Shown piece by piece: positions 1,348 through 10,508 of a DNA stretch of 10,738 bases. The first letter of the stretch is position 1, and each line of letters opens with the position of its first letter. The notes beneath the pieces were generated by a model. The model was not told the DNA's origin. It made no database searches and saw only the letters and a list, made by a program, of their open reading frames with translations. The stretch spans positions 1 to 10,738 of the forward strand of contig JAITVR010000177.1 in the NCBI GenBank assembly GCA_031285695.1, in the 5' to 3' direction. A program made the position numbers and the translations under genes. Origin of the DNA: Prevotellaceae bacterium (lineage in GTDB: Bacteria > Bacteroidota > Bacteroidia > Bacteroidales > UBA932).

Positions 1348-2841
1348 TTATTCGTAAGCTCCCATTTTGAGCATGCTCACCTCTTTAGGCGTTAGCACGC
1401 GCCACTTTCCGCGCTCCAACGATTTCTTTGTTAGCCCGGCAAAGTAAACGCGGTCGAGTTTTTTTACCTCGTATCCCAGCGCTTCAAACATGCGGCGCAC
1501 AATGCGGTTGCGACCCGAATGAATTTCAAGCCCCACCTCGCACTTATCCTCCAAGTTGGCGTAACCAACTTCATCGGCTATTGCCAAGCCATCTTCAAGT
1601 TCAATGCCCTTCACGAGTTTTTCCATGTCGGGTTTTTTGAAGGTTTTGTCCAACACTGCGTGGTACACCTTGCGCTTGTTGTAGCTGGGGTGGGTAAGCT
1701 GTTTGGTCAGCTCGCCATCGTTGGTAAAAAGCAGCACGCCGGTGGTGTTTTTGTCCAATCTTCCAACAGGATAAACGCGCTCTTTGCACGCGCCGGCAAT
1801 CAAATCCATCACCGTTTTATCGGCGTGCGGGTCTTCTACGGTTGTAACGTAACCCTTTGGTTTATTGAGCAGCACGTACACTTTTTTTTCGCCCGAAAGT
1901 CGTTCGCCATTCCAGCGAATATCATCGGTAATCAAAACCTTTGTGCCCAACTCGGTAACCACCGCTCCGTTTACGGTAATTTCGCCATTTTCAATATATT
2001 CGTCAGCTTCGCGGCGCGAGCACACGCCCGAGTTGGCAATAAACTTGTTGAGCCGAACCGGCTCGTTGGGGTCCTGCGCTTTTGCTTTTGCCTTAGATTT
2101 ATCTAACACGCGAATGTCCTTGCGCGGCTTGTCCTCAAACGTTCTGCGCGGACGCCTTGCATCATCGGAAAAAGATTTTTCTTCATACGATTTTTTGGCG
2201 TATGGCTTACGCTCAAAAGGCTTATCCTCGCCGTAGGTTTTTCGGCGTTCGTATGGTTTTTTGTCATCGCTAAAGCTCCGGCGCGGCTTGTCGTCTCCGT
2301 ACGATTTTCTTTCATACGGCTTGCGCTCGTAGGGTTTTCCATCGCTGAAATTTCTGCGCGGTTTTTCCTCGCCATCGCGCCCAAAGCGTGGCTGACGGGG
2401 CTTGTCGCCATACGGCTTACGCTCGTAGGGTTTTCTGTCCTTATCGTACGCCTTTTTTTCGTAAGGTTTTCGCACAAACGATTTTTTATCATCGCCAAAA
2501 CTTCTGCGCGGTTTTTCCTCGCCATCATACGATTTTCGCGGCGCCCGCTTAGGTTTATCCTCGCTGTCGAAAGATGATTTTCGTGGTGCGCGCTTCGGTT
2601 TTTCGTCAAAATTTTCCTCACGTTGCTCCGCTTGTGGCGTGCGATTTTTGAAAAAACTTTGTCGTGTGGCGCGCTTTGCAGGAGCCTCCTCTTCGGTTTT
2701 TTCCTTGCGTACGCGCTTCGGTTTTTCCTCGCCGTCATCGGACTTTGCGGCGCGTTTTGGCACTGCGCTTGCCGTTTTTTTACGCTCCATGCTGCCCGTG
2801 CGCGGGCGGTAGGTCGATGTTTCTTCGTTGCTATTTTCCAT
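1348..2841 (-). CDS. rluB: 23S rRNA pseudouridine synthase, RluB/RsuA family
   Basis: Converts a specific uridine in rRNA to pseudouridine; by family, RluB acts on 23S rRNA. Numbering from the ATG at 2841 (497 aa), residues 1-258 are a low-complexity Lys/Arg/Glu/Asp/Pro/Tyr region with repeated units such as KPYERKPY and EEKPRRSF. The S4 RNA-binding domain starts at about 261 (VRLNKFIANSGVCSRREAD) and runs to about 308. The catalytic domain follows, with the signature GRLDKNTTG at 360-368 (Asp363 is the predicted catalytic aspartate) and HSGRNRIVRRMFEALGYEV at about 441-459. The enzyme core is of normal length, and the N-terminal half is the extension. A TTG two codons further upstream (2847) also opens the frame, but ATG 2841 is preferred. 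That ATG lies inside the end of the toxin gene (11-nt overlap), so rluB appears to be the last gene of the toxin-antitoxin operon. I see no promoter of the TAnnTTTG type inside the toxin gene. The substrate could also be the RluE or RluF site. Confidence 0.93.
   Translation of the reverse strand: MENSNEETSTYRPRTGSMERKKTASAVPKRAAKSDDGEEKPKRVRKEKTEEEAPAKRATRQSFFKNRTPQAEQREENFDEKPKRAPRKSSFDSEDKPKRAPRKSYDGEEKPRRSFGDDKKSFVRKPYEKKAYDKDRKPYERKPYGDKPRQPRFGRDGEEKPRRNFSDGKPYERKPYERKSYGDDKPRRSFSDDKKPYERRKTYGEDKPFERKPYAKKSYEEKSFSDDARRPRRTFEDKPRKDIRVLDKSKAKAKAQDPNEPVRLNKFIANSGVCSRREADEYIENGEITVNGAVVTELGTKVLITDDIRWNGERLSGEKKVYVLLNKPKGYVTTVEDPHADKTVMDLIAGACKERVYPVGRLDKNTTGVLLFTNDGELTKQLTHPSYNKRKVYHAVLDKTFKKPDMEKLVKGIELEDGLAIADEVGYANLEDKCEVGLEIHSGRNRIVRRMFEALGYEVKKLDRVYFAGLTKKSLERGKWRVLTPKEVSMLKMGAYE
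2107..2613 (-). repeat. Degenerate in-gene repeats encoding basic linker
   Basis: This is the repetitive part of the rluB N-terminal extension. At DNA level, 2313-2339 and 2409-2435 are 27-nt copies with one mismatch. At protein level, short units built from KPYERK(P/S)Y, (D/E)(D/E)KPRRSFSDDKK and KRAPRKS recur in varying order. Alternating basic and acidic residues with Pro and Tyr suggest an intrinsically disordered, nucleic-acid-binding tail. The repeats also keep a second minus-strand frame open for about 210 codons, which is an artefact of composition. Confidence 0.75.
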
Positions 2842-3169
2842 TGTCAACTTCAGTAGTCAAAATATCGTTGATTTCTTTGTCTGAAATTGTATCCCTTTCG
2901 CTCTTGTCGTAAATGGAGAGCAGGAATACACTTCCTTGTTCGGTTTTTAGATAGGTAATTACTCTTGCGCCACCGCTTTTTCCTCTTCCCTTTGAGGCTA
3001 TGGCAAGGCGTATTTTATACAGGTTATTGCCAAGCGGAGTGCCTTTTTCGGGATTTTCCGAGAGTTCTTTTCCGAGTTCTTTCAGCTCATTTTTTAGGGA
3101 TGCAAATTTTTTTAGTAGAGGCTTCGCTTCACGCTCAAAATTGCGGGTAGTTTCTACTTTATAGCTCAT
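2831..3169 (-). CDS. RelE/ParE-family toxin (type II TA)
   Basis: Probable toxin of a type II toxin-antitoxin pair. Characterised members of the RelE/HigB group are mostly ribosome-dependent mRNA endonucleases; ParE members poison gyrase. The 112-aa product has the compact RelE-fold layout: an N-terminal strand plus helix (YKVETTRNFEREAKPLLKKF, 3-22), a second helix with S-L-K-N-E-L, the motif NPEKGTPLG (39-47), then the strongly conserved block YKIRLAIASKGRGKSGGARV (51-70) and LLSIYDKSERDTIS (83-96). Arginines and lysines in these last two blocks are the likely RNA-contacting residues. The ATG at 3169 overlaps the end of the antitoxin gene by 11 nt, and the stop overlaps the start of rluB by 11 nt, so translational coupling is likely. 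The closest subfamily (HigB-like or other) cannot be fixed from sequence alone. Confidence 0.85.
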   Translation of the reverse strand: MSYKVETTRNFEREAKPLLKKFASLKNELKELGKELSENPEKGTPLGNNLYKIRLAIASKGRGKSGGARVITYLKTEQGSVFLLSIYDKSERDTISDKEINDILTTEVDNGK

Positions 3170-3473
3170 CTAAAAATTCACTTAAGGAGCGTGTTTTCAA
3201 TTTTCCCGCCTTGATTAACCTCAAATCTTTGGCTGCCTCTTTGAGGTTGGCAATAATTTCCTCACGCGAATCGCCGCTATTTTCTTCTACCTGCACAAAG
3301 CTGAAGCTGCCGAGCAACTCCATTAAAAAGTTGTACTTACGTGCTGCAACATTCAGCACTACCCGTTGCTGCTGTTTAGATGCGGGATTAGCCGCCGTGC
3401 GTTGCCGTGTGCTTTGCAGCGCTACCCGTTGCAGTGGCTTGCGTTTGGATATGTCCAGCGTTGCTGTTGCCAT
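3159..3473 (-). CDS. Antitoxin of the RelE-type module
   Basis: Small protein (104 aa from ATG 3473) directly upstream of, and overlapping, the RelE-family toxin; the standard antitoxin-first order. The C-terminal half resembles a Bacteroidota antitoxin type: a YNFLMELLGSFSFVQVEE block (47-64), then an acidic-to-basic helix EEIIANLKEAAKDLRLIKAG (71-90) and KLKTRSLSEFLDEL at the end, the part expected to wrap the toxin. Residues 1-38 are basic and rich in Gln, Arg and Thr; I recognise no ribbon-helix-helix or helix-turn-helix there. The frame can be extended to a TTG at 3500, but those bases are the last three of the TACCTTTG -7 element, so they lie upstream of any transcript from that promoter. 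The ATG at 3473 is therefore chosen, leaving a leader of about 20 nt. By family, the antitoxin alone or with toxin would repress this promoter. Confidence 0.75.
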   Translation of the reverse strand: MATATLDISKRKPLQRVALQSTRQRTAANPASKQQQRVVLNVAARKYNFLMELLGSFSFVQVEENSGDSREEIIANLKEAAKDLRLIKAGKLKTRSLSEFLDEL

Positions 3474-3497
3474 TTTTGTTTTTGTATGTAGGACTGA

Positions 3498-3527
3498 CAA
3501 AGGTACGAATATTCACGCAGAAATCAA
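3498..3527 (-). promoter_or_regulatory. Promoter of antitoxin-toxin-rluB operon
   Basis: Reading on the minus strand, TTG (3527-3525) is followed after 19 nt by TACCTTTG (3505-3498). This matches the Bacteroidota -33/-7 promoter pattern TTG-N19/21-TAnnTTTG. The expected transcription start is about 3490, some 17-20 nt before the antitoxin ATG. A perfect 8-bp palindrome GAATATTC (3507-3514) sits between the two boxes and could be an operator. Confidence 0.7.
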
Positions 3528-6229: not shown

Positions 6230-7528
6230 ATGTTTGGCATTTACTTTCATATTCCCTTTTGTAAAAGCAAGTGCGGCTACTGCGATTTTTACTCGGTAGC
6301 CTCGCAAACCCTTGTGCAGCCTATGGTTGAAGCCATGCTGCAGGAGGTGGAGCTGCGCAAAAATTATTTTGACAATATTGTCATTCCGTGCTCGACACGG
6401 AAACGAAGTTCGGCGCAAGCCAATCTACAAATCGAAGGATTGCAAGTCAAGCCTGCAATGACAGATGAAAAAAACGAAGCCACCCTGTACTTTGGCGGCG
6501 GCACACCTTCGCTGCTTCAGCCAGCGCAAATTGCTGCGCTTGCGCAAAAAGTCATTCAAACTTTTGGCGTAAAAAATGTTACCGAATTTACCGTCGAAAT
6601 TAATCCCGACGATGCTACAACAGAGTATTTGCAAGCCTTGCGCAATATTGGAGTTAATCGTTTGAGCATCGGCATTCAATCTTTTTTCGACGATGATTTG
6701 CAGCGCGTCAATCGCCGGCACACCGCGCAGCAAGCCAAGCTGAGCGTACAGAATGCACAAAAAGTCGGCTTCAAAAATATTTCGGTTGACCTCATTTACG
6801 GCCTTCCGCAAATGACGTTGGAGCACTGGCGAAGCAACTTAGAAACCGCGTTTTCGTTGAACATTCAGCACCTTTCGGCCTACGCGCTGTCGGTGGAGGA
6901 GCGCACGCCGTTTGGCGTTCAGCAGCGTAAGGGGCAGCTATTTTTACCAACCGAAAACGAGGTTGCCGAACAAAGTGCGCTGCTTGATGAGCTCAGCGCG
7001 CAGCACAATTTTACGCGCTATGAAATTTCTAATTTTGGAAAAAAAGGATTTTTTTCGCAGCACAACACCGCGTACTGGCAGCAAAAACCCTACATTGGCC
7101 TTGGCCCGTCGGCGCACTCGTACAGCGGCGCACAGCGGCAAAATAATGTGGCAAATAATGCGTTGTATATGGAGCGTATTGCCGGCTGTCATTCCGCGCT
7201 TGACGCGGAAACGAAGTTCGGCGCAAGCCAATCTCCAAATCGGGAGATTGCGGGTCAAGCCCGCAATGACAAGTTTTTTGAGCTCGAAAATCTCACCTCG
7301 GAGCAGCGGTACAACGAGTATATTTTTACCGGACTGCGCACCATGTGGGGAATAGATTTGAACTATATTGAGCAAGTTTTCGACAAAAAGCTGTATGACT
7401 ACTGCTGTAAAAACTTATCACAACTTATTGATAATAAAATAGTTATATTAAAAAATAACAAAATAACAATTCCGCAAAACAAGTGGATTGTAGCCGATAG
7501 CATTATTGTCGATTTGATTTGGGCGTAG
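6230..7528 (+). CDS. hemW: Radical SAM heme chaperone HemW, with two insertions
   Basis: HemW is the HemN-like radical SAM protein that binds heme and delivers it to target enzymes; older annotations call it oxygen-independent coproporphyrinogen III oxidase. Of 432 residues, the visible motifs are: IPFCKSKCGYCDF (8-20), with the [4Fe-4S] cysteines at 11, 15 and 18 and no HemN-type fourth cysteine; YFGGGTPS (87-94); VEINPDD (122-128); LSIGIQSF (145-152); NRRHTAQQAK (161-170); VDLIYGLPQMT (186-196); YEISNFG (264-270); and QHNTAYW (277-283), the HNxxYW motif linked to heme binding in HemW. The C-terminal wing RYNEYIFTGLRTMWGIDL is at 360-377. Residues about 51-78 and 320-347 have no place in the family. 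They are translated copies of an 83-bp palindromic repeat, each followed by the resumed HemW sequence (EATLYFGGG; ELENLTSEQRYNEY). Removing both leaves about 376 residues, the usual length. No catalytic motif is interrupted, so the protein is probably functional. Start at 6230, 8 nt after the upstream stop. Confidence 0.93.
   Translation: MFGIYFHIPFCKSKCGYCDFYSVASQTLVQPMVEAMLQEVELRKNYFDNIVIPCSTRKRSSAQANLQIEGLQVKPAMTDEKNEATLYFGGGTPSLLQPAQIAALAQKVIQTFGVKNVTEFTVEINPDDATTEYLQALRNIGVNRLSIGIQSFFDDDLQRVNRRHTAQQAKLSVQNAQKVGFKNISVDLIYGLPQMTLEHWRSNLETAFSLNIQHLSAYALSVEERTPFGVQQRKGQLFLPTENEVAEQSALLDELSAQHNFTRYEISNFGKKGFFSQHNTAYWQQKPYIGLGPSAHSYSGAQRQNNVANNALYMERIAGCHSALDAETKFGASQSPNREIAGQARNDKFFELENLTSEQRYNEYIFTGLRTMWGIDLNYIEQVFDKKLYDYCCKNLSQLIDNKIVILKNNKITIPQNKWIVADSIIVDLIWA
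6380..6462. repeat. Palindromic repeat copy 1, inside hemW
   Basis: An 83-bp element with inverted ends GTCATT (6380-6385) and AATGAC (6457-6462), extendable by one base each side to TGTCATT/AATGACA. It contains two imperfect sub-hairpins, near 6384-6402 and 6439-6459. It aligns without gaps to copy 2 with 10 mismatches, mostly A/T here against G/C there, so it looks like the more decayed copy. It starts at codon position 1 of hemW and is read V-I-P-C-S-T-R-K-R through V-K-P-A-M-T. Confidence 0.85.
7188..7270. repeat. Palindromic repeat copy 2, inside hemW
   Basis: An 83-bp element with the same ends as copy 1 (GTCATT 7188-7193, AATGAC 7265-7270). It has two good sub-hairpins: TTCCGCG...CGCGGAA (7192-7210) and ATTGCGGG...CCCGCAAT (about 7247-7267). 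It starts at codon position 2 of hemW, one base out of step with copy 1, and is read C-H-S-A-L-D-A-E-T through G-Q-A-R-N-D. All three frames of this strand need not be open, but both frames used in hemW are. Confidence 0.87.
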
Positions 7529-7560: not shown

Positions 7561-7648
7561 CCACGTCATTGCGAGGAGTGAGGTACGAGCGACGAAGCAA
7601 TCTCACGCCTGATGTTGAGATTGCTTCGCTTTGCTCGCAATGACGTGG
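7561..7648. repeat. 80-bp palindromic element in intergenic leader
   Basis: Perfect 15-bp inverted ends (7561-7575 and 7634-7648, CCACGTCATTGCGAG and its complement) enclose a second perfect 13-bp pair (7593-7605 and 7616-7628, CGAAGCAATCTCA and its complement). The core from GTCATT to AATGAC is 7565-7644. It shares these ends and a central CAATCT with the two copies inside hemW, but the rest of its sequence differs. It can form a long cruciform or RNA hairpin. A plus-strand frame from 7612 runs through it into the glucosaminidase, but that N-terminus is only translated repeat. Confidence 0.85.
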
Positions 7649-7668: not shown

Positions 7669-8235
7669 ATGAATAAAATAGCCGCCATATTTTTACTAAG
7701 TTTTTTACCCCTTTGCACGTTTGCAAATCCCAACGGAGCGCCCACCAAAATTATGGGCAGCGGCAGGCTCACCTCGGAGCAGCTGCACACCTTTTTTGTA
7801 CGCGCAGCCGTGGATAGCGATGCTACTCGCGTGGCGCGGCTTGCGGCCATTTACGTGGACGAAGCGCAGGTGGAGGGCGTAAATCACGATGTGGCGTTTG
7901 CGCAAATGATTTTGGAAACCGGCTGGCTGCGCTACCGCGGCGTGGTGCGACCGGAAATGAATAATTTTTGCGGTTTGGGCGCAGTAAGCGCTACCAAAAA
8001 CGGGCACAAATTTCCCGATGAGCGCATAGGCGTTCGCGCCCACATTCAGCACCTCAAAGCTTACGCAAGCAAGGCGCCGCTTACCGGTCAGCTGGCCGAC
8101 CCGCGCTACCACCACGTGAGTCCAAGAGGAAAATGCCCCACCGTGGACGGGCTTGCCGGCACCTGGGCAACCGACCCCATGTACGCCGTAAAAATAAAAT
8201 CGCTGCTGCAAAGAATGTACGCAGCCGCTCAATAA
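7669..8235 (+). CDS. Secreted glucosaminidase-domain protein (GH73-type)
   Basis: Probable peptidoglycan hydrolase cleaving after N-acetylglucosamine in the glycan strands. The product is 188 aa from ATG 7669. Residues 1-19 form a signal peptide ending T-F-A before N-P-N; Cys16 in LPLC is a weak lipobox alternative. The domain runs from about 38 to 187: YVDEAQVEGVNHDVAFAQM (62-80), ILETGWLRYRG (81-91) with Glu83 as the likely catalytic acid, MNNFCGLGA (97-105), FPDERIGVRAHIQHLKAYA (115-133), DPRYHHVSPRGKCPTVDGLA (144-163) and TWATDPMYAVKIKSLLQRM (165-183). This is the compact Bacteroidota form with no separate wall-binding domain. An in-frame ATG at 7612 was rejected because the 19 residues it adds come from the palindromic repeat and would bury the signal peptide. 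Confidence 0.88.
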   Translation: MNKIAAIFLLSFLPLCTFANPNGAPTKIMGSGRLTSEQLHTFFVRAAVDSDATRVARLAAIYVDEAQVEGVNHDVAFAQMILETGWLRYRGVVRPEMNNFCGLGAVSATKNGHKFPDERIGVRAHIQHLKAYASKAPLTGQLADPRYHHVSPRGKCPTVDGLAGTWATDPMYAVKIKSLLQRMYAAAQ

Positions 8236-10330: not shown

Positions 10331-10401
10331 TGACCTATGGTGTAATGGTAGCACAACAGATTCTGGATCTGTTTGTCTAGGTTCGAATCCTGGTAGGTCA
10401 A
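10331..10401 (+). tRNA. tRNA-Gln, anticodon CTG
   Basis: A 71-nt cloverleaf. The acceptor TGACCTA pairs with TAGGTCA (10394-10400), and the discriminator is A10401. The D arm is GTGT-AATGGTA-GCAC. The anticodon stem ACAGA/TCTGT encloses the loop TTCTGGA, giving anticodon CTG, which reads CAG. The T arm is CTAGG-TTCGAAT-CCTGG. The weak U1-A72 pair is a glutamine tRNA feature. CCA is not encoded (ACG follows), so it must be added enzymatically. Confidence 0.96.
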
Positions 10402-10437: not shown

Positions 10438-10508
10438 TGACCTATGGTGTAATGGTAGCACAACAGATTTTGGTTCTGTTTGTCTAGGTTCGAATCCTGG
10501 TAGGTCAA
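10438..10508 (+). tRNA. tRNA-Gln, anticodon TTG
   Basis: A 71-nt cloverleaf identical to the preceding tRNA except for two anticodon-loop bases. The loop is TTTTGGT, giving anticodon TTG, which reads CAA (and CAG by wobble). Acceptor TGACCTA (10438-10444) pairs with TAGGTCA (10501-10507), with discriminator A10508. CCA is not encoded. It is 36 nt after the first tRNA, presumably in one transcript. Confidence 0.96.

Follow-up and report, generated by a model that had tools for sequence, protein, structure and literature searches.

How can a gene be entered twice by a palindromic repeat and still encode one continuous protein? The question is raised by hemW, encoding a radical SAM family heme chaperone, in a 10,738-nucleotide stretch of a Prevotellaceae bacterium genome (contig JAITVR010000177.1 of assembly GCA_031285695.1; hereafter, the window). 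An original prediction, made from the sequence of the window, held that one palindromic element had been inserted twice into this gene and was translated in two frames, in parallel with the protein-coding palindromic elements (RPEs) of Rickettsia. We examined the gene, its homologs, and the source assembly (G000; 255 contigs, 1.48 Mb, 77% complete).

Two palindromic repeats lie within an intact hemW gene

The features of the locus are as follows.

6230..7528, + strand: hemW, radical SAM family heme chaperone, 432 aa, carrying two REP-dimer inserts
6379..6463, + strand: copy 1, inverted REP dimer in loop 1 of HemW; 85 bp including the outer T/A; residues 51-78 (VIPCSTRKRSSAQANLQIEGLQVKPAMT)
6380..6403, + strand: left REP of copy 1; the T of the TGTC tag stands just before it; from the consensus rule and a hairpin in the RNA fold
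6439..6462, − strand: right REP of copy 1, inverted; from the consensus rule and a weaker hairpin in the RNA fold
7187..7271, + strand: copy 2, inverted REP dimer in loop 2 of HemW; 85 bp including the outer T/A; residues 320-347 (CHSALDAETKFGASQSPNREIAGQARND)
7188..7211, + strand: left REP of copy 2 (GTCATTCCGCGCTTGACGCGGAAA); positions 7188-7212 have one mismatch to the half-site pattern; also from the RNA fold
7246..7270, − strand: right REP of copy 2; matches the half-site pattern exactly (GATTGCGGGTCAAGCCCGCAATGAC)
7564..7645, no strand assigned: third palindromic repeat, located in the spacer downstream of hemW and belonging to a second family (GTCATTGCGAGGAG...); RNA fold of −39.5 kcal/mol (z = −5.39)

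Both repeats were found, as predicted, within a single HemW reading frame. In the ORF list of the window, 6230-7528 is one intact ORF of 432 stop-free codons; it scored 263.1 bits against the NCBIfam HemW model TIGR00539 (cutoff, 205.4) and matched the Pfam families Radical_SAM and HemN_C. At the 80 columns conserved at ≥90% in a 69-row alignment, the protein showed no deviations. An AlphaFold2 model computed from this alignment had a mean pLDDT of 90.9, and its best match among solved structures was Escherichia coli HemN (1olt; TM = 0.74 by query length). When the inserts were mapped on this model, a check that the original prediction had proposed, both fell in blocks of low confidence (pLDDT 43-56 for insert 1 and 61-79 for insert 2), while the rest of the fold was confident.

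The copies lie at the predicted coordinates, with 73 of 83 bases identical in an ungapped comparison, and their codon phases are also as described: the GTC of copy 1 stands at codon position 1 and that of copy 2 at codon position 2. They are two copies of one repeat, but the unit length of 83 bp had to be revised. Among the dimers extracted from the source genome, by a search rule that itself includes GTC, T precedes GTC in 55/55 and A follows GAC in 53/55; the repeat unit is therefore 85 bp, TGTCATT...AATGACA. Over these 85 bases the copy pair is 88% identical (family D2 of the repeat-family listing).

The element is an inverted dimer of hairpins, in which opposite-facing ends flank a variable core. 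The common hairpin forms of the ends are GTCATTGCGGGCTTGACCCGCAATC and GTCATTCCGCGCTTGACGCGGAATC, and the form ATTGCGGG-CTTGA-CCCGCAAT has an 8-bp stem and a 5-base loop. The left REPs of the two hemW copies have lost their outermost A-T pair and have ACG as the tail. The predicted RNA fold of copy 2 reached −38.6 kcal/mol (z = −3.94 versus shuffles); that of copy 1 had z = −1.40, with 20 of 200 shuffles at least equally stable.

The third repeat (7564-7645) overlaps the upstream part of an ORF called at 7612, the real start of which is probably an in-frame ATG at 7669. Elsewhere in the window, two tandem, near-identical tRNA genes (10331-10401 and 10438-10508; repeat family D1) were the only matches to Rfam at the gathering threshold. 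On the minus strand, two short overlapping ORFs (2831-3169 and 3159-3500) resemble, by sequence impression, a RelE-type toxin-antitoxin pair, and an ORF with a long N-terminal low-complexity stretch (1348-2847; repeat families D3-D7) presumably encodes a pseudouridine synthase.

The element is dispersed across the source genome

The original prediction required further copies elsewhere in the genome, and these were abundant. A BLAST search of the source assembly with copy 2 gave at least 69 matches (40 of 84 candidates scored). A search for half-sites, using a one-end pattern with up to 3 mismatches allowed, identified 136 across the assembly of 1.48 Mb, 69 in forward and 67 in reverse orientation, whereas the reversed-pattern control returned none. 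By a consensus rule, at least 55 complete dimers, a lower bound, were extracted from 61 stretches, the window included. Three of the extracted dimers share the hemW type of core: the two hemW copies and one on contig C196. Copy 2 shares more bases with the C196 copy (78/83) than with copy 1 (73/83), which does not favor the idea that either hemW copy is a duplicate of its partner.

At the family level, the element matched in at least 28 of 199 genomes, with up to 4 candidates evaluated in each genome. Within the genus (11 genomes), it was found among these candidates only in G000 and, with one match, in G006. No match to the Y1 transposase family PF01797 was detected in G000, which is 77% complete, while the control matched in 5 of 14 genomes; a RAYT as mobilizer found no support in this assembly.

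Two properties of the assembly were noted alongside. Some contigs (C79 and C132) start at or near such repeats. The assembly also seems to be a mix of two strains: second ends of a ubiD-type gene (C132/C79) and of folC (C253/C174) share 90% and 95% protein identity, respectively. Between these strain fragments, dN/dS was 0.135 for folC (118 codons outside the element) and 0.583 for ubiD (139 codons including a few element codons), both over short stretches.

Close relatives of HemW lack the inserts

Uninserted relatives, which the original prediction had proposed to look for, were found within the genus. Complete HemW proteins were recovered from seven of the ten further genomes in the genus; all seven are 382 aa long and lack both inserts. 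From the remaining three came a short fragment, a weak match that proved unrelated, or no match at all. Because the element is patchy, these relatives may merely lack it. Short loops were also seen, where covered, in the closest insert-free proteins, P0003 (63% identical), P0010 (69%, partial), and P0013 (73%, partial): loop 1 is short in P0003 and P0013, and loop 2 in all three.

The net gain in loop 1 is 27 aa relative to P0003 and P0013 (9-aa loop) and 24 aa relative to the genus (12-aa loop); in loop 2 of the window HemW it is 26 aa. Removal of the inserts had been said to restore a normal length of about 376 aa. The arithmetic is correct (432 − 28 − 28), but the result is six residues below the 382-aa relatives, which implies that host codons were lost or that the loops were originally shorter. 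The target duplication that had been offered as one source of extra bases found no support: no sign of a duplication was seen, and net gains below the element size in hemW, folC, and mnmE point to loss instead.

The element is readable in several frames

The coding strand of each REP contains a single TGA, which lies within CTTGAC in the left REP and within AATGAC in the right one. For GTC-to-GAC lengths of 2 mod 3 (here 62, 77, 80, or 83 bp), both TGAs share one frame, so that the other two frames can be open; by symmetry, the same holds for two frames of the complementary strand. Among the 35 dimers of this class, 28 had three or four open frames (14 of these had four), versus two with three and none with four among the 20 dimers of other lengths. 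In hemW, each of the two plus-strand open frames is used once, as explained by the presence of two open frames per strand in 2 mod 3 dimers. That one element yields two unrelated stop-free peptides was thus correctly described, although such a capacity is common among these dimers, which makes the observation less surprising.

All six gene-internal dimers (see below) are of the 2 mod 3 class, compared to 29 of the 49 others; the difference is not significant (Fisher P = 0.076), and the length class was rejected as proof of selection. Gene-internal dimers have 3 to 4 open frames (mean, 3.8), versus a mean of 2.4 in the other 49. Relative to other dimers of the same length class, the excess gave P = 0.011, which is partly a selection effect because the genic copies were found via their open frames.

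In-frame copies occur in other conserved genes

Open frames through the elements were listed, and twelve of the longer ones were translated. At least 6 of the 55 dimers lie in frame inside conserved genes: two in hemW and one each in folC, mnmE, a menaquinone-biosynthesis (UbiD-family) decarboxylase gene, and a sigma-54 regulator gene. This count is a minimum because open frames resembling nothing familiar were left outside it. FolC, MnmE, and the decarboxylase each scored above an NCBIfam cutoff; the sigma-54 regulator, truncated by a contig end, matched many such families and passed no cutoff. In all four non-hemW proteins, the insert is translated as CHCGLDPQS...IAGQARND, in the same frame as hemW copy 2. 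Not counted were four ORFs with the element before the likely start codon, namely, TadA, TrmB, and two that we take to be MetAP-like and AroC-like. In a search of other proteins with the copy 2 peptide, which is weak given length and word limits, the window's own protein alone was found among two candidates.

For folC, mnmE, and the ubiD-type gene, the sites were compared within the genus. FolC has 29 residues at the site versus 11 in 7/7 informative relatives. The MnmE region has 31 residues versus 23 in six of seven relatives and 26 in one; a simple insertion does not describe this case because the net gain is 8 aa against a 21-aa reading. The UbiD region has 49 residues versus 13 in 8/8 relatives, a gain of 36 aa, which is larger than the element. 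A second repeat-like stretch, YPKPVEG, adjoins the insert there and is presumably the translation of another repeat.

The same two loops of other HemW proteins carry inserts

The top 120 matches of an unselected HemW search were scanned with a list of 24 words, mostly of REP type. Matches to REP words occurred in the window's own protein (P0001), P0002, P0054, P0064, and P0099, and always in these two loops. In addition, loop 1 of P0082 contains TPSPSP, which matched the word of another repeat and is, we assume, its translation. P0002 (415 aa, 68% identical, encoded on an 883.8-kb contig) has inserts in both loops: both ends of loop 1 (VIAGLTCKPLKEDGLLIGRPRVEHGMT) match the reverse complement of copy 1, i.e., the opposite orientation, and loop 2 (SVIARRNDEAIS) reads, in protein letters, like the second repeat family at window positions 7564-7645. 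In a set of 17 proteins, loop 2 contains forms of (R)HCEEARRSNPE...RLPRFARND, and one of these proteins, P0121, also has SHCGLDPQS in loop 1. This set was selected, having been found with the P0064 loop as the query; 11 of the 17 were inspected whole and the rest were word-scanned. By their similarity to Bacteroidales HemW proteins, they likely belong to that order. Peptides of the second-family type appear to occupy loop 2 in both P0002 and the P0064 set.

The 69-row alignment was hand-chosen and comprises the window protein and 68 of 134 collected proteins, 8 of which belong to the selected 17. In it, loop 2 has 5 residues in 59 proteins, and all 10 exceptions carry REP-type inserts. In a separate set of 130 HemW proteins from 131 loci, loop 2 has ≤10 residues in 127. 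Inspection of five long-loop cases in this set recognized no second REP insert, that of the window being the sole one. Two further enlargements in the HemW proteins of other genomes were unlike REP translations. In L042 (genome G018), both loops are enlarged (29 and 27 residues). In L077 (Bacteroidales MAG Tb.RUG.288), loop 2 holds a 186-residue low-complexity insertion of GGGGGAAAGSCGAAAG repeats, a case of extreme tolerance at the same site.

The two loops of other HemW proteins thus contain elements of either orientation, and these elements come from two repeat families. Going by these sequences, at least five insertion events in the two loops would be needed, or six if loop 1 of P0002 was filled independently. 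An alternative for the latter is that a single ancestral loop 1 insertion was inherited by both species, that of the window and that of P0002, and later turned around at its site in one of the two, flipped rather than reinserted. Recombination between the inverted REP arms, or a template switch from one arm to the other, would have produced the flip. P0002 loop 1 contains VIAGLTC...RVEHGMT, the same reading as in the reverse complement of copy 1; among 110 half-readings of G000 dimers, VIAGLTC and VEHGM occur twice each and both together in copy 1 alone. These uncommon hairpin variants suggest, as a lead, that P0002 loop 1 may derive from the same insertion turned around. The two ubiD alleles offer a second lead, the core of the second allele (C79) agreeing with the C132 element at 11/15 bases in inverse and 7/15 in the same orientation, although the C79 allele begins at a contig end and P0002 was compared at the protein level. 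Against this alternative, the cores of P0002 loop 1 and copy 1 show no resemblance and differ in length by one codon, and the right end of P0002 resembles a G000 subfamily (IGRYRVKHGMT) about as well as it does copy 1 (global scores of 63 and 64). Since the cores differ and the scores are so close, an independent insertion fits about equally, and we regard an inversion in place as possible but rather doubtful.

A broader speculation, which we consider unlikely, would treat REP dimers of 2 mod 3 length as cassettes neutral to frame and orientation that land or flip in permissive loops and leave the protein unbroken. Several lineages would then have used the HemW loops, each on its own, as standing landing sites, and each flip would swap one peptide of ~28 residues for another.

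Comparison with known systems

The parallel with RPEs proved apt. Di Nocera et al. (2013, PMC3733652), who describe the CGTC-tagged REP superfamily, count RPE-6 and RPE-4 of Rickettsia conorii as CGTC-1 and CGTC-4. According to the same authors, Bacteroidetes are among the host phyla, the elements have no dedicated transposase and are often dimers, and each REP has an unpaired C/TGTC tag, an 8- to 9-bp stem with A and T residues first, a loop of 4 to 5 bases, and a short unpaired tail, mostly CCA. Dimers inside genes code for 20 to 30 residues, some genes are hit twice, and recB of two Xanthomonas was hit at about the same site. The element studied here has the TGTC tag (T in 55/55 and A in 53/55 dimers) and the 8-bp stem with a loop of 5; unlike the CCA consensus, its tails are CTC, CCC, and similar, with ACG on the left in hemW. 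As to a dedicated transposase, G000 had no PF01797 match, in an assembly that is 77% complete and in which the neighbors of most copies are untyped. The likeness is one of description.

REPIN/RAYT systems also consist of paired inverted REPs dispersed in a genome, with GTAG-type tags and an associated Y1 transposase; the tags and the transposase are also described in PMC3733652. The paired inverted REPs are alike, but here the tag is TGTC, and the Y1 transposase had no matches in the 77%-complete assembly.

For Rickettsia, PMC3767692 reports that orthologs of genes with RPE-4, -6, or -7 have been entered at one and the same locus across species, sometimes by another RPE group; it notes ATGAC as a frequent motif and weighs a hotspot against common origin. 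In-frame RPEs are reviewed in PMC10969869. The present element shares with RPEs the in-frame insertion into conserved genes (hemW twice, folC, mnmE, the ubiD-type gene, and the sigma-54 fragment). It differs in that its host is not a member of the Rickettsiales, the nearest named HemW records being those of Prevotellaceae and Bacteroidales MAGs, and in that two loops of one protein are used in more than one lineage; here too the likeness is one of description. Isolate names hint at a termite gut as the source. The accessible text of PMC3733652 does not mention HemW as a REP host gene, and none of the titles found in a literature search reports such elements in HemW. The kind of element is already known; hemW as a host and the recurrence at the same loops appear to be new.

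Origin of the inserts and rival explanations

The original proposal that one palindromic element was inserted twice in frame is borne out by the dispersion of the element, its absence from the seven complete HemW proteins of the genus, the low pLDDT of the inserts, and its presence in at least four other genes. We conclude, with a probability of about 0.86, that the inserts are dispersed non-autonomous palindromic elements, passengers that survive in permissive HemW loops with the frame kept open. A dispersed, non-autonomous inverted dimer of TGTC-tagged REP hairpins would have entered hemW at two loops, both probably surface exposed, and the survival of the copies there would reflect both the tolerance of these loops for extra residues and the frame being left open. 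HemW would then still be active, and selection would have purged frame-breaking copies. Judging by its dispersion, the element is presumably mobile; mobilization would need a transposase in trans.

Selection of the inserts for a function, such as mRNA hairpins tuning HemW synthesis or interaction surfaces, is in our view highly unlikely. The use of the same two loops in different lineages, the fold of copy 2 (z = −3.94 versus shuffles), and the retention of the P0064-type insert in 17 proteins would fit such a role. However, the insert peptides vary in sequence, frame, orientation, and repeat family among proteins, copy 1 folds little better than shuffles (z = −1.40; 20/200 at least as good), close relatives have no inserts, and unrelated genes carry the same elements. 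If hemW were instead misassembled, or a pseudogene in decay whose loss of function lets the repeats drift, this would suit a fragmented source (255 contigs, 77% complete) in which C79 and C132 begin at or near repeats, but the idea is scarcely credible given 432 stop-free codons, no deviations at 80 conserved columns, a confident core fold, and a separate protein, P0002, with inserts in the same loops on an 883.8-kb contig.

The findings matter in several respects. (i) Coding palindromes, best known from Rickettsia, occupy at least six places in five genes of a Bacteroidales genome. (ii) The same HemW loops, filled with different repeats, frames, and orientations, provide a natural map of tolerance for 12 to 30 extra residues. 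(iii) The choice between a hotspot and an old insertion, raised for RPE-4, -6, and -7 in PMC3767692, becomes testable with sister strains. Taken together, these results suggest that parasitic DNA can become extra protein at tolerant spots.
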